From Luteolibacter sp. LG18 (lineage in GTDB: Bacteria; Verrucomicrobiota; Verrucomicrobiia; Verrucomicrobiales; Akkermansiaceae): 64,000 bases of DNA. Below, in pieces: positions 54,608-62,756 of this stretch (positions are counted from its first letter, which is position 1; each line of letters begins with the position of its first letter). Location of the stretch: NCBI RefSeq assembly GCF_036322585.1, contig NZ_AP024600.1, positions 1,984,001 to 2,048,000 of the forward strand, read 5' to 3'. The translations under genes were made by a program, and so were the position numbers. The notes beneath the pieces were generated by a model that did not search any database, was not told the origin of the DNA, and saw only the letters and a program-made list of their open reading frames with translations.

Positions 54608-57181
54608 GTGATTCCGAGATCCCCCTCGCTCGCCGCCACGCTCCTGCTCGCCGTTTCCTCCCTGGCCCAGGGTGATCCGGCCTCCGATGCCCTGCTCGGG
54701 GCCGCCCGCGCATCGGACGCCTCCCGGCTGGTGCTCGCCCTCGCCGAGGCGAAGCCCGATGTCCGCGATACCCAGGGCCGCACACCCCTGATGCTGGCCG
54801 CGCAGGCCGGGTCCTTCGAGTGCGCGAAGCGTCTGATCTGGGCCGGAGCCGATCCCCGGCTCACCGATTCCGCCGGGAAAACCGCGTTCGATTGGCTCGA
54901 TACCTCTTCACCCGCCTACGGCCCTCTCAGCCTGTTGCTGCGCTGCCACGCCTTCTGCCGCCAGAACGGCCGTCCCGGCGGCAAGGCCCGGATTCCCCAC
55001 CTCGCCTTGGTCAATGACACTTTCGTCGACTACACCCATCCGGCGCTCGCCGCGGCCTATCAGGTGAACTCCGCCGAGTCGAAGGGCCGCCGCGGCGTGG
55101 ACGACGACCGCAATGGCTTCGTCGACGACGTCTACGGCTGGAACCTCAACAACGACCAGCCCGTCCGCGCGCCGATGCTCTCGCTCGACGACTCCGCGGA
55201 GAACCGGAGCTTCCTCATCGGGATGCTGAACGACTACCTGAAGGCCCAAGGCGGCGACAAGGTGATGGAGACGAAGCTCCGGACCCGCTTCAACAACCCC
55301 CTGGTCCAACAGATCGGCCTCCAGAACCTGCTCGGCCAGAACATCGCGCTCAACGACCACGTCTACGCCGAGATGTTCATGGCCGCCTCCCACGGCACCC
55401 ACGTGGCGGGCATCATCAAGCGCTACAGCGGCGACAAGGCGAAGCTCACCTGCGCCACCATCGGGGCGGTGGTTTCGCCGAAGGTCTCGGTGGTGTTCGA
55501 TGAGGACACACTCTCCGGCCTCGCGGAGGAATCCGCGGACTACGGGGCTTTTGTCCTGGCCGTGCTCGATCGTTACCGCGGCGAGGCGATCGCGAAGGGC
55601 CGTCGCGCCTCGGACTATCTCCGGGCCAGCGGCGCGGGCATCGCGAACATGAGCTGGTGTCGCCCGAAGTCGTTTTTCGCCGGTTCCGCCGCCCGCTTGA
55701 AGAAGATCTACAAGGACCACGGGGCCGATCCGGCCAGCGTTGACCGCGCCTACACCGGCCAGGTGGCCGAGCGCATCGCCGAACTGCCGCTCGAGCTCAG
55801 CATCGCGGACGCCGCCGCCTTCGCGCTCGCGTTCTACGAGAACCCGGACGTGCTCGTGGTGGTGTCCGCGGGCAATGATCACCTCGACAACGACACCGGC
55901 CTGCCCTCGCCGCAATATCTCTCCCGCTTCTTCCCGAACGTCCTCACCGTCGCCTCCACCGATGACCAGGGGAAACCCTCGTCCTTCACCAACTACGGCG
56001 TGCGCTCGGTCCAGATCGCCGCACCCGGCGAGCAGATCCGCTCGACCATCCTCGGCGGGCTGGAGGCACCGATGAGCGGCACCTCGATGGCCGCTCCGGT
56101 CGTCGCGGGCGTGGCCGCCGGCATTCGTGCTGATTTCCCGAAACTCGCCGCCGCGGACCTGCGCCGGATCCTGGAATACTCGGCGCGGAAGGACCCGCGG
56201 CTGGCGGACAAGGTGGCCACCTCCGGCTGGGTGGATGCCGATGCCGCCCGGCGGATGGCCTCCACCTGGGCTGGTGCCACCGGCGCGATGCTGCTCGCCG
56301 AGGTCGCCCGCGATCGCCGCCCCGGCCAGGACGGGCCGAAAATCACCGCGCCGCCTGCCGCTGCACCGAAGCTCGCCTCGCTGAAGCTCAATCCCTTGCC
56401 CAAACCCGCCGCGCCGAACCCGGCTCCCACTCCGGCACCCGCGCCCGCGGTGCCGAAACCTTCCATTGGAAAAGGCTGGCGCATCACCACCACCGGCGGT
56501 TTCGCCGATTCCTGGCGGGTCGTGATGTCGAAGGGCGCGCCCTACACCGAACAGTGCCACCTCGGCACCGGCGAGTGGCCGGCCGATCAGATCGAGTCCT
56601 ATTGGAAACAGGGCTACCGCGTCACCTCCATCGCCGGGGATGGGGATGGCTGGAACGTGGTCATGAGCAAGGGCGTGCCCGGTGGTCAGCGCGTGCTGGG
56701 CATGGACTTCGATCAGGAGCAGCTCGCGAAGCTCTTCACCGAAGGTTGGCGCATCACCACCTTCGGCGGCTGGAAAAACCAGTGGGTTTTCGCCCTCGGC
56801 GACCAGACCGGTTACGGCCCCCAGCGCTACACCCTGCCCACGCCCCTCAATGACAGCCGTCGCGATTGGATCCAGAAACGCCGGGCGGAGGGCATGATGA
56901 TCACCGCCGTGGCGGGGGACGATACCCCGGAGGACGCCGAGGATGGCTGGTTGTTCGTGGCCACCGCGAATTCCGGCTACACCGATCAGGTGATGGAGGG
57001 CCCGGGACCGTGGCCGGGCCTGTGGATCGCCGGGAAACTGCGGGAGGGCTACCGCGTGACCTCGATCGCCGGTGGGCCGGGGCGCTCGCTGGTGATCATG
57101 TCGAAGGGCGCGAAACTGGGCGAACAGGTGCTTTCCGACGGCTCCTCCTACCCGGCGGACTGGATCCAGGAGCGCTGGTGA
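54608..57181 (+). CDS. Secreted subtilisin-like protease with ankyrin-like N-terminus and kinase-tail-like C-terminal repeats
   Basis: 857 residues, GTG start. Signal peptide (about 1-21), then ankyrin-like repeats (about 25-100: DVRDTQGRTPLMLAAQAGSF, GADPRLTDSAGKTAFDWL). The S8 domain (about 130-560) keeps the triad: Asp137 in LVNDTFVDYTHPAL (the usual DTG is DTF), His about 262 in ASHGTHVAG, and Ser about 492 in GTSMAAPVVAG. A Pro/Ala linker (about 585-620) leads to about five repeats (about 620-857) such as GWRITTTGGFADSWRVVMSK and GYRVTSIAGDGDGWNVVMSK. These repeats resemble those at the C-terminus of plant casein-kinase-1-like proteins (as I recall, DUF7477). Likely periplasmic or extracellular. 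Confidence 0.82.
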   Translation: MIPRSPSLAATLLLAVSSLAQGDPASDALLGAARASDASRLVLALAEAKPDVRDTQGRTPLMLAAQAGSFECAKRLIWAGADPRLTDSAGKTAFDWLDTSSPAYGPLSLLLRCHAFCRQNGRPGGKARIPHLALVNDTFVDYTHPALAAAYQVNSAESKGRRGVDDDRNGFVDDVYGWNLNNDQPVRAPMLSLDDSAENRSFLIGMLNDYLKAQGGDKVMETKLRTRFNNPLVQQIGLQNLLGQNIALNDHVYAEMFMAASHGTHVAGIIKRYSGDKAKLTCATIGAVVSPKVSVVFDEDTLSGLAEESADYGAFVLAVLDRYRGEAIAKGRRASDYLRASGAGIANMSWCRPKSFFAGSAARLKKIYKDHGADPASVDRAYTGQVAERIAELPLELSIADAAAFALAFYENPDVLVVVSAGNDHLDNDTGLPSPQYLSRFFPNVLTVASTDDQGKPSSFTNYGVRSVQIAAPGEQIRSTILGGLEAPMSGTSMAAPVVAGVAAGIRADFPKLAAADLRRILEYSARKDPRLADKVATSGWVDADAARRMASTWAGATGAMLLAEVARDRRPGQDGPKITAPPAAAPKLASLKLNPLPKPAAPNPAPTPAPAPAVPKPSIGKGWRITTTGGFADSWRVVMSKGAPYTEQCHLGTGEWPADQIESYWKQGYRVTSIAGDGDGWNVVMSKGVPGGQRVLGMDFDQEQLAKLFTEGWRITTFGGWKNQWVFALGDQTGYGPQRYTLPTPLNDSRRDWIQKRRAEGMMITAVAGDDTPEDAEDGWLFVATANSGYTDQVMEGPGPWPGLWIAGKLREGYRVTSIAGGPGRSLVIMSKGAKLGEQVLSDGSSYPADWIQERW

Positions 57182-57225
57182 CCCGGCAGTGGTCCGTTTC
57201 CGGTGAAAAACCCGGTGATGGGGGT

Positions 57226-57254
57226 TTGACAGCTCCGCGCTGGTTCGTCTTAGT
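57226..57254 (+). promoter_or_regulatory. Candidate promoter upstream of the Pro-rich protein gene
   Basis: TTGACA (57226-57231, full consensus), a 17-nt spacer, CTTAGT (57249-57254), 31 nt before the ATG at 57286. Confidence 0.42.
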
Positions 57255-57285
57255 AGCTTTCTCAAATCCCAAAACCCGCGTCTGA

Positions 57286-57960
57286 ATGAGCGAGAATGAA
57301 AACCAACCGCCGGCTCCGTCGAAGCAGACGTCGAGCGTTCCTCTGAAGAAGGAAACCGTCCGCGTGACCCTCAAGGCGGCCGATGCTCCTCCTGCCGCCA
57401 CCCTTCCGGGCGGCGCTCCGGTGGTCCGTCCGCCCTCGCCGACCGCTCCGCCGGTGCCCAGTGGCCTCGGTGGCGGCCCGCGTCCGCCGGCTCCGGCCCC
57501 GACCATTCCGCTCCGCCCCGCCGGTGCTCCCACCGTGCCGGGTGCCCCGACCGCCCCGGGCGGTGCCCCGCGCCCGCCGGGCCCGGCTCCGACCATCCCT
57601 CTCCGTCCTGCTGGCGCGCCGACCCTGCCGCCCGCCGCCGGTGGTGCTTCCGCCGCTCCCGCTCCGGGACCGACCGTCGCCCTGCCGAAGGCCACCGTGC
57701 AGCTCCAGGCTCCGACCCAGCCGCTCGGCACCGCCGCCCGCCCGTCCTTCAGCCAGGCCGCCACGCTGCAGGCCGATGACGAAGAGGATTCCGCCGGTGG
57801 CGAAGGCATCGCCAACGCGCTCTCCGTGGTCGGCTTCATCGCCGCCCTCGCCGTGCTCGCGTTCCAACTGATGATCGCCAACACCTGGATCAGCGCCGAA
57901 GACAATCCGGAAGCCGGCTCGTGGGGCCAGCTCTTCTCGTCCTCCGCTGCCGCCGAGTAA
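57286..57960 (+). CDS. Pro/Ala-rich membrane-anchored protein
   Basis: 224 residues. An N-terminal conserved-looking motif SSVPLKKETVRVTLKA, then about 130 residues of Pro/Ala/Gly repeats in which APTIPLRPAGAPT appears twice, then an acidic stretch (DDEEDSAGGEGIANA) and one C-terminal TM helix (VVGFIAALAVLAFQLMIANT) with a short tail. I recall similar proteins in Verrucomicrobiota but no function. It may span or probe the periplasm. A tiny membrane peptide gene follows 19 bp later, then trxA. Confidence 0.68.
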   Translation: MSENENQPPAPSKQTSSVPLKKETVRVTLKAADAPPAATLPGGAPVVRPPSPTAPPVPSGLGGGPRPPAPAPTIPLRPAGAPTVPGAPTAPGGAPRPPGPAPTIPLRPAGAPTLPPAAGGASAAPAPGPTVALPKATVQLQAPTQPLGTAARPSFSQAATLQADDEEDSAGGEGIANALSVVGFIAALAVLAFQLMIANTWISAEDNPEAGSWGQLFSSSAAAE

Positions 57961-61700: not shown

Positions 61701-62756
61701 TCAGCCCGGGTTGACCGGCTGGTATTCGAAGCTCGGTCCGATCGGGCCGGGCAGGTTGGTGCCAGCCATCATGTCGAGCGCCTGCTGGCGCAGTGACATC
61801 ATCGCGCCGAGCGTGCGGCGGAAGGTTTCCGGCTGGCCGTTGAAGAGGTCGTGGAGGCCCTTCAGCAGACTGGTGTAGGTGTAGTTGAAGTTGTCCATCG
61901 CGTGGCGCTGGGCCGAGCCGCTCGGATAGTCCGCGGCCTTCGGGTTGGTCGGGATCTGGGCGACCGCGGAGGCGTTGTAGGTGATCGGGGCACCGCCGTA
62001 GTAGTACTGCTGGTCCGGCGGATCGGTGGGCTTCGCGTTCGGATTCGGGATCAGCGCGTGGCCGTAGTAGATCTCGGCGAACTTGTAGTAGTGGGCCAGC
62101 TCGCCGTCCTCGCCCGCCAGCGGGGTGGTGCCGGTGCCTTCGCCCTGGTCGATGATGATGTCGATCGCTTCCAGCGCACTGGTGAGGTCGGTCACGATGC
62201 TGCCTTCCGGAAACGGCGGCTGCACCTGGAGCGCGGGATCGCCGGTGAAGGCGCCCTCGCCGAGGGCGATGAGCTGCTTTTTGATCTCATCGTAGAACTG
62301 GCCGATGGTGACGCCCTGCTCGCCGTTCGCGGCGAAGAGCGTTGCGGTTTCCGGATAATCGTTCGGGTGCTGCGGCTCCTCGATTTCCATGAAGACGTTC
62401 TTCACCACGTCCAGCGTGAACGGGGAGAGGTTCACGATCAGGCCGCTTTCCACGCCGCCGGGCAGCGGGCCCGGGTAGTCCGGGGTGAACACCGGGGTGT
62501 CGATCACCGGGTGGCCGCCGATGGCGTTGAGGACGTTGCACGCCAGCGTCATGTGCAGCATTTCCTCCGCCACGATGCTGCCGATGATGTCCGCCACCAC
62601 GGCGTTCTCCTCGCTCTGGCCGAGCGAGTACATGGTGTAGAGATACGGCGGGATGGTGGCGTGCTCGAGCTGGACGGCCTGTTGGAGCGCGGTCTGGACG
62701 GCTTGCTTGCTGCCGGTCGCGAGGTTCCGGACCAGGTTGGCTTTGAGAAGGATCAT
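61701..62756 (-). CDS. Ferritin-like (VioB/iminophenylpyruvate-synthase-type) protein
   Basis: 351 residues. The N-terminal helical bundle has ALQQAVQLEHATIPPYLYTM and GSIVAEEMLHMTLACNVLNA with an E-x-x-H pattern of a ferritin-like diiron site, then AIGGHPVIDTP. This matches the ferritin-like domain found in VioB-type enzymes and many orphan bacterial proteins. The C-terminal half is less conserved but has HYYKFAEIYYGH, a likely second metal motif. No violacein genes are here. It is cotranscribed with the large partner gene that ends 25 bp upstream. Confidence 0.78.
   Translation of the reverse strand: MILLKANLVRNLATGSKQAVQTALQQAVQLEHATIPPYLYTMYSLGQSEENAVVADIIGSIVAEEMLHMTLACNVLNAIGGHPVIDTPVFTPDYPGPLPGGVESGLIVNLSPFTLDVVKNVFMEIEEPQHPNDYPETATLFAANGEQGVTIGQFYDEIKKQLIALGEGAFTGDPALQVQPPFPEGSIVTDLTSALEAIDIIIDQGEGTGTTPLAGEDGELAHYYKFAEIYYGHALIPNPNAKPTDPPDQQYYYGGAPITYNASAVAQIPTNPKAADYPSGSAQRHAMDNFNYTYTSLLKGLHDLFNGQPETFRRTLGAMMSLRQQALDMMAGTNLPGPIGPSFEYQPVNPG

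Follow-up and report, generated by a model that had tools for sequence, protein, structure and literature searches.

Here, I describe an 857-aa protein of Luteolibacter sp. LG18 in which a signal-peptide-like start is followed by about three ankyrin repeats, an S8 catalytic domain, a Pro-rich linker and a five-unit DUF7477 tail. The interpretation favoured here, to which I would assign a fair degree of probability, is that of an exported subtilisin-type serine protease in which DUF7477 would serve as a substrate-docking exosite, DUF7477 itself, the tail of the plant PPK/MLK kinases and the N-domain of the fungal protein 7tpu being one and the same fold. The protease fold and the family of the tail are well supported by comparison with curated profiles; the conserved Ank-S8-DUF7477 architecture is new to me, each separate domain being already known. 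The features of the gene in the window (the whole stretch of 64,000 nucleotides that was analysed) are as follows:

54608..57181, forward strand: whole gene, 857 aa, GTG start (translated open reading frame, Pfam, relatives with the same domain order)
54608..54673, forward strand: probable Sec signal peptide, residues 1-22 (MIPRSPSLAATLLLAVSSLAQG), read by eye from the sequence
54674..54958, forward strand: about three ankyrin repeats, residues 23-117 (Pfam Ank families, E 1.9e-7 to 4.8e-7)
55001..56257, forward strand: subtilisin-like catalytic domain, residues 132-550 (Pfam Peptidase_S8, match to 3vv3)
55016..55024, forward strand: Asp motif D137-T-F, residues 137-139, where DTG is usual (alignment of eight proteins)
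55391..55393, forward strand: catalytic His262 (SHGTHVAG), invariant in 8/8
55874..55876, forward strand: oxyanion-hole Asn423 (SAGN), invariant in 8/8
56084..56086, forward strand: nucleophile Ser493 (SGTSMAAP), invariant in 8/8
56339..56461, forward strand: Ala/Pro-rich linker, residues 578-618 approximately, predicted to be disordered (sequence, pLDDT)
56474..57178, forward strand: DUF7477 tail of five units, predicted strand-strand-strand-helix blades (Pfam, unit alignment, model)

Gene, N-terminal region and distribution

The open reading frame named in an earlier note on this DNA was found at exactly 54608-57181, on the forward strand and with a product of 857 aa. The protein is conserved over its length in relatives from other genomes, and the gene is therefore regarded as real; the long open reading frame that runs in reverse across it (54908-57265) most likely arises from high G+C. 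Both the ankyrin and the subtilase part, which the same note had read from the letters, are matched by Pfam (E 1.9e-7 and E 6e-29, respectively).

Orthologues likewise begin with a hydrophobic stretch in the alignment, and the protein is probably exported. The Pfam ankyrin match spans residues 32-95 (E 1.9e-7) and passes the cut-offs of two families (PF00023, 30.2 bits vs 21.1; PF13857, 31.7 vs 27), the region terminating in LxLRC.xFC, the two Cys of which are mostly conserved among relatives. The repeats occupy the usual position of the subtilase propeptide, and no Pfam match to the Inhibitor_I9 propeptide was found in the 857-aa protein. In that position they may have a regulatory or guiding role, or may bind a second partner.

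The source genome (5.80 Mb, one contig) has a single DUF7477 locus. The domain was detected in 8 of 289 genomes of the same order, in 5 of 384 genomes of a class sample (four over the cut-off) and in 4 of 388 genomes of a phylum sample (three over the cut-off). The catalytic domain, used as a query, has matches in 69 of 278 genomes of the order, but only six of the matches are full length; all six lie in proteins that also carry DUF7477, so this type of catalytic domain is coupled to the tail. A scan of genome contigs with one narrow peptide pattern returned seven loci, all belonging to Verrucomicrobiota (Verrucomicrobiaceae, a Prosthecobacter debontii MAG and an Akkermansiaceae MAG). Judging from these searches, the architecture is a small Verrucomicrobiota family, rare even within Verrucomicrobiota; the serine protease, which is probably exported, occurs in a few of them. 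L023/G533 was discarded, being a weak match below the cut-off and due to chance.

DUF7477 also occurs in enzyme-free proteins, one of them with TPRs (G368) and another that looks exported (G069). Locus L025 (6187-8514, reverse strand), from another order of the class, encodes TPR repeats joined to a DUF7477 tail, in which about five units can be made out by eye, and lacks an enzyme domain; L021 (16120-17364) encodes a protein of 415 aa that looks exported and has DUF7477 units but no recognised enzyme. In an Akkermansiaceae MAG, a short frame (L033, 5902-6315) holds a degenerate remnant of DUF7477 units, probably a decayed gene. The orthologue at L020 (8132-10084, reverse strand) is disrupted in its N-terminal frame and retains only some two of the five units of the tail, due either to natural shortening or to an assembly error.

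None of the neighbours in the window recurs beside the orthologues, hence no operon function can be inferred from them. Just downstream (57286-57960, forward strand) lies a gene whose 224-aa product is rich in Pro and Ala, has a hydrophobic segment close to its end and matches no Pfam family; the gene is not conserved beside orthologues. Further on (61701-62756, reverse strand), a ferritin-like PF12902 protein is encoded (E 9.8e-65). A mobile or viral origin was rejected: no DUF7477 was found in plasmids, phage records queried with the complete protein yielded one short match to S8 but no DUF7477, viral contigs scanned with one narrow pattern gave no DUF7477, and the viral fold library contained no match.

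The DUF7477 tail and its plant counterpart

The tail matches Pfam DUF7477 (PF24289; E 4.7e-29, 101.8 bits vs a cut-off of 27), and so do 7/7 tails in the alignment of relatives; the identity that the earlier note had suggested, proposing a profile search of the tail as the check, is thus backed by a curated family. It had also counted about five repeats, and five units of 44-52 residues were found (623-668, 669-712, 713-761, 762-813 and 814-857), its GYRVTSIAG-type motif fitting units 1, 2 and 5 best. The summed pairwise score of the units is 515, compared with 222 +/- 14 when the units are shuffled (267 at most in 1000 shuffles), and the repeat is far beyond chance. Similarity among the units is low at the DNA level, therefore the repeat is old and not a recent tandem duplication. 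Upstream of the tail, pLDDT is below 50 across residues 557-621 in the full-length structure model. In that model the catalytic domain is poor (mean pLDDT 64.8, pTM 0.42), and it was rejected as a basis for active-site geometry or domain placement.

DUF7477 is presumably the C-terminal domain (PPKC) of the plant MLK/PPK (Mut9-like, CK1-like) kinases. A plant MLK/PPK tail sequence, entered by hand rather than taken from a database record, matches PF24289 at 5.1e-89 (model positions 127-268), so that the kinship with plant CK1-like proteins, first noticed from the repeat pattern, is very probably right. The PF24289 model has 268 positions, in agreement with the length of the plant tails, which comprise about 280 conserved residues (PMC7084540). 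The bacterial tail is like PPKC in its repeat pattern and in its position C-terminal to a catalytic domain, and very probably in its Pfam family (E 4.7e-29 for the bacterial tail); unlike in plant PPK, DUF7477 is here part of an exported-looking bacterial serine protease with ankyrin repeats and not of a nuclear kinase.

As to function, the plant PPK kinases act in light signalling, and CRY2 is one of their substrates. The PPKC domains of Arabidopsis bind CRY2 under blue light in the yeast two-hybrid assay and were named CRY2-interacting domains (PMC5437284); for PIF3, another PPK substrate, the kinase domain alone suffices (PMC5437280). The binding of CRY2 by PPKC offers a precedent for docking by DUF7477, which, placed on a flexible linker, would keep certain protein substrates close to the catalytic domain. 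Text searches of the literature found no paper for the plant tail peptides, nor any for DUF7477 by name in the literature searched.

The tail could, however, have a binding target other than the substrate, for instance a regulator or the cell surface. That it is a localisation or anchoring domain (for the cell surface, a polymer or a carbohydrate) and not a docking domain has perhaps a modest chance of being true: the C-terminal domains of many secreted subtilases anchor or localise, a flexible Pro-rich linker precedes the tail as in other secreted enzymes, DUF7477 is found on an enzyme-free exported-looking protein and beside TPRs, and aromatic residues recur in every tail unit. Yet Pfam gives no match to a carbohydrate-binding or sorting family, and in the relative that has been studied best, the plant PPK tail, the binding partner is a protein (PMC5437284). 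Substrate docking is the function preferred here.

Predicted fold of the tail and the fungal polyglycine hydrolases

The tail profile matches no sequence of a solved structure, hence no template was at hand. A model of the tail alone (11 sequences) reached pLDDT 92.0 and pTM 0.90 and consists of five strand-strand-strand-helix (EEEH) units. Its sole significant Foldseek match in the PDB is 7tpu_A (E 5.5e-6, probability 1.00), with a TM of 0.66 by query length over 243 columns at 12% identity, the next-best match having a probability of 0.23; matches to PCSK9, with probabilities no higher than 0.23 and a TM of about 0.2, were set aside as noise. The entry 7tpu is the polyglycine hydrolase of Fusarium vanettenii (Fvan-cmp). 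Its N-domain (residues 13-262) is made of five 44-residue EHEE repeats forming a barrel, and its authors present it as a novel fold, its function unknown, with relatives across all kingdoms; exosite binding has been suggested for it (PMC9912923). The match length and the five-repeat pattern fit only the N-domain, which is therefore taken as the aligned part of 7tpu. EEEH and EHEE are one cycle cut at different points, and in the predicted tail model the five repeats are closed into a 7tpu-type barrel (Foldseek E 5.5e-6, TM 0.66). Linking DUF7477 explicitly with the N-domain of 7tpu is new to me; the list of relatives given by the 7tpu authors may already include DUF7477 proteins.

Both domains are built from five structural repeats, each about 44 residues long, and are accessory to a secreted protease. 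They differ in that the accessory domain is C-terminal here and N-terminal in 7tpu, that the catalytic domain of the polyglycine hydrolase is beta-lactamase-like rather than S8, and that sequence identity is 12%.

At the sequence level, the Pfam family to consider is BTRD1 (PF17660), the polyglycine-hydrolase repeat. It is touched by three of the seven DUF7477 tails (best E 0.0028), and in one relative (L027) the match has an E of 1.2e-4 and 22.3 bits. The 857-aa protein itself has no Pfam match to BTRD1, and it was not filed under that family because of this and because even the best relative, at 22.3 bits, stays below the cut-off of 23. Unit profiles of DUF7477 and BTRD1 align in register, helix and GYR strand included, at E 0.0014, one of 200 column shuffles scoring as high, and the whole-domain profile comparison is weak (P 0.02, probability 2%). 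The two families thus appear to be linked weakly but in register, and common ancestry of DUF7477 and the fungal N-domain is likely but not proven.

The other possibility, namely that three-strand and helix repeats became ring-closed with five-fold symmetry twice, so that neither ancestry nor function is shared, agrees with the 12% identity between the tail and 7tpu and with the whole-domain comparison (P 0.02, probability 2%). It is nonetheless unlikely, given the equal number of units, their similar length, the same order of elements, the same register of the GYR strand, and Pfam BTRD1 matches just below the cut-off. Common descent would make DUF7477, the plant PPK/MLK tail and the fungal N-domain one five-bladed docking or exosite fold placed beside unrelated catalytic domains. 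Along the same line, the proposal of the earlier note that a shared binding module moves between kinases and proteases holds in part: a binding module is retained, by analogy only, whereas transfer between kinases and proteases was not borne out, and the pattern fits equally well an old fold recruited several times. Kinship with the N-domain of the fungal polyglycine hydrolase, another protease accessory domain, is more telling than the kinase link.

In the same bacterial order, four loci (L034, 1048-1800, reverse strand; L035, 1498-2229; L036, 1501-2277; L041, 1312-2097) encode a beta-lactamase-like domain preceded by units of the BTRD1 type. The profile of such BTRD1/beta-lactamase proteins with five units matches 7tpu at 4e-15, and these four proteins are bacterial counterparts of the fungal polyglycine hydrolases.

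The catalytic domain and the meaning of the architecture

The PF00082 Peptidase_S8 match covers residues 259-530 (E 6e-29, above the cut-off), and the closest solved relative of the catalytic domain is deseasin MCP-01 (3vv3, E 5.7e-28). The domain has insertions between Asp and His and also between His and Asn. It shares the Asp, His, Asn and Ser motifs with deseasin MCP-01 and other S8 subtilases bearing DDDxNGxxDDxxG, and, like deseasin MCP-01, has an Asp-rich stretch after the Asp motif (GVDDDxNGxxDDxxGW in this protein). It differs from deseasin MCP-01 by D-x-[F/W] for DTG, SW for SLG, the long insertions, the ankyrin repeats, the DUF7477 tail and the lack of a recognisable I9 propeptide.

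D[TS]G is the common S8 signature around the Asp, and the triad itself does not need it. Conservation was read from an alignment of eight proteins, seven of which cover the Asp-motif region: the canonical signature is absent, 7/7 sequences reading D-x-[F/W], and Asp137 is kept in every relative covering that position. The change from DTG to DTF pointed out earlier is indeed seen at residues 137-139, the third position being aromatic in 7/7 with the Asp retained. The S1-pocket strand reads N-x-S-W in the alignment, SW replacing the usual SLG. The protein is filed as a variant subtilase with its catalytic Asp retained, and DTF is a family-wide conserved trait, neither a random change nor the mark of a broken enzyme. 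Specificity is probably altered in this D-x-[F/W] and SW variant; Phe or Trp at the DTG glycine, together with the SW strand, would affect activity or specificity to some degree. The fixed D-x-[F/W] motif of this architecture is, again, new to me.

That the protein is a pseudo-protease, in which the D-x-F/W motif and the changed S1 strand abolished cleavage and left a scaffold that binds through its ankyrin and DUF7477 ends, is quite improbable: the aromatic residue for Gly fixed in 7/7 sequences, SW in place of SLG and protein-interaction-type repeat domains on both sides of the catalytic domain speak for it, but Asp, His, Asn and Ser are all invariant, where a dead enzyme usually loses one, and the S8 score is strong (E 6e-29).

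An active, probably exported protease with a docking tail is the preferred reading. It is also possible, if somewhat less likely than not, that DUF7477 of bacteria and plants and the fungal N-domain derive from one ancient module that docks protein substrates for whichever catalytic domain it is joined to. If so, its partners would be a subtilase, a CK1-like kinase and a beta-lactamase-like protease, and a function would be assigned to a fold that occurs in all kingdoms and has lacked one so far. Placing DUF7477 in the 7tpu fold would also yield a fold prediction for the conserved tail of the plant PPK/MLK kinases and, the plant version binding CRY2, would provide a concrete functional proposal for the fold, for which the 857-aa bacterial protein would be a simple test case.
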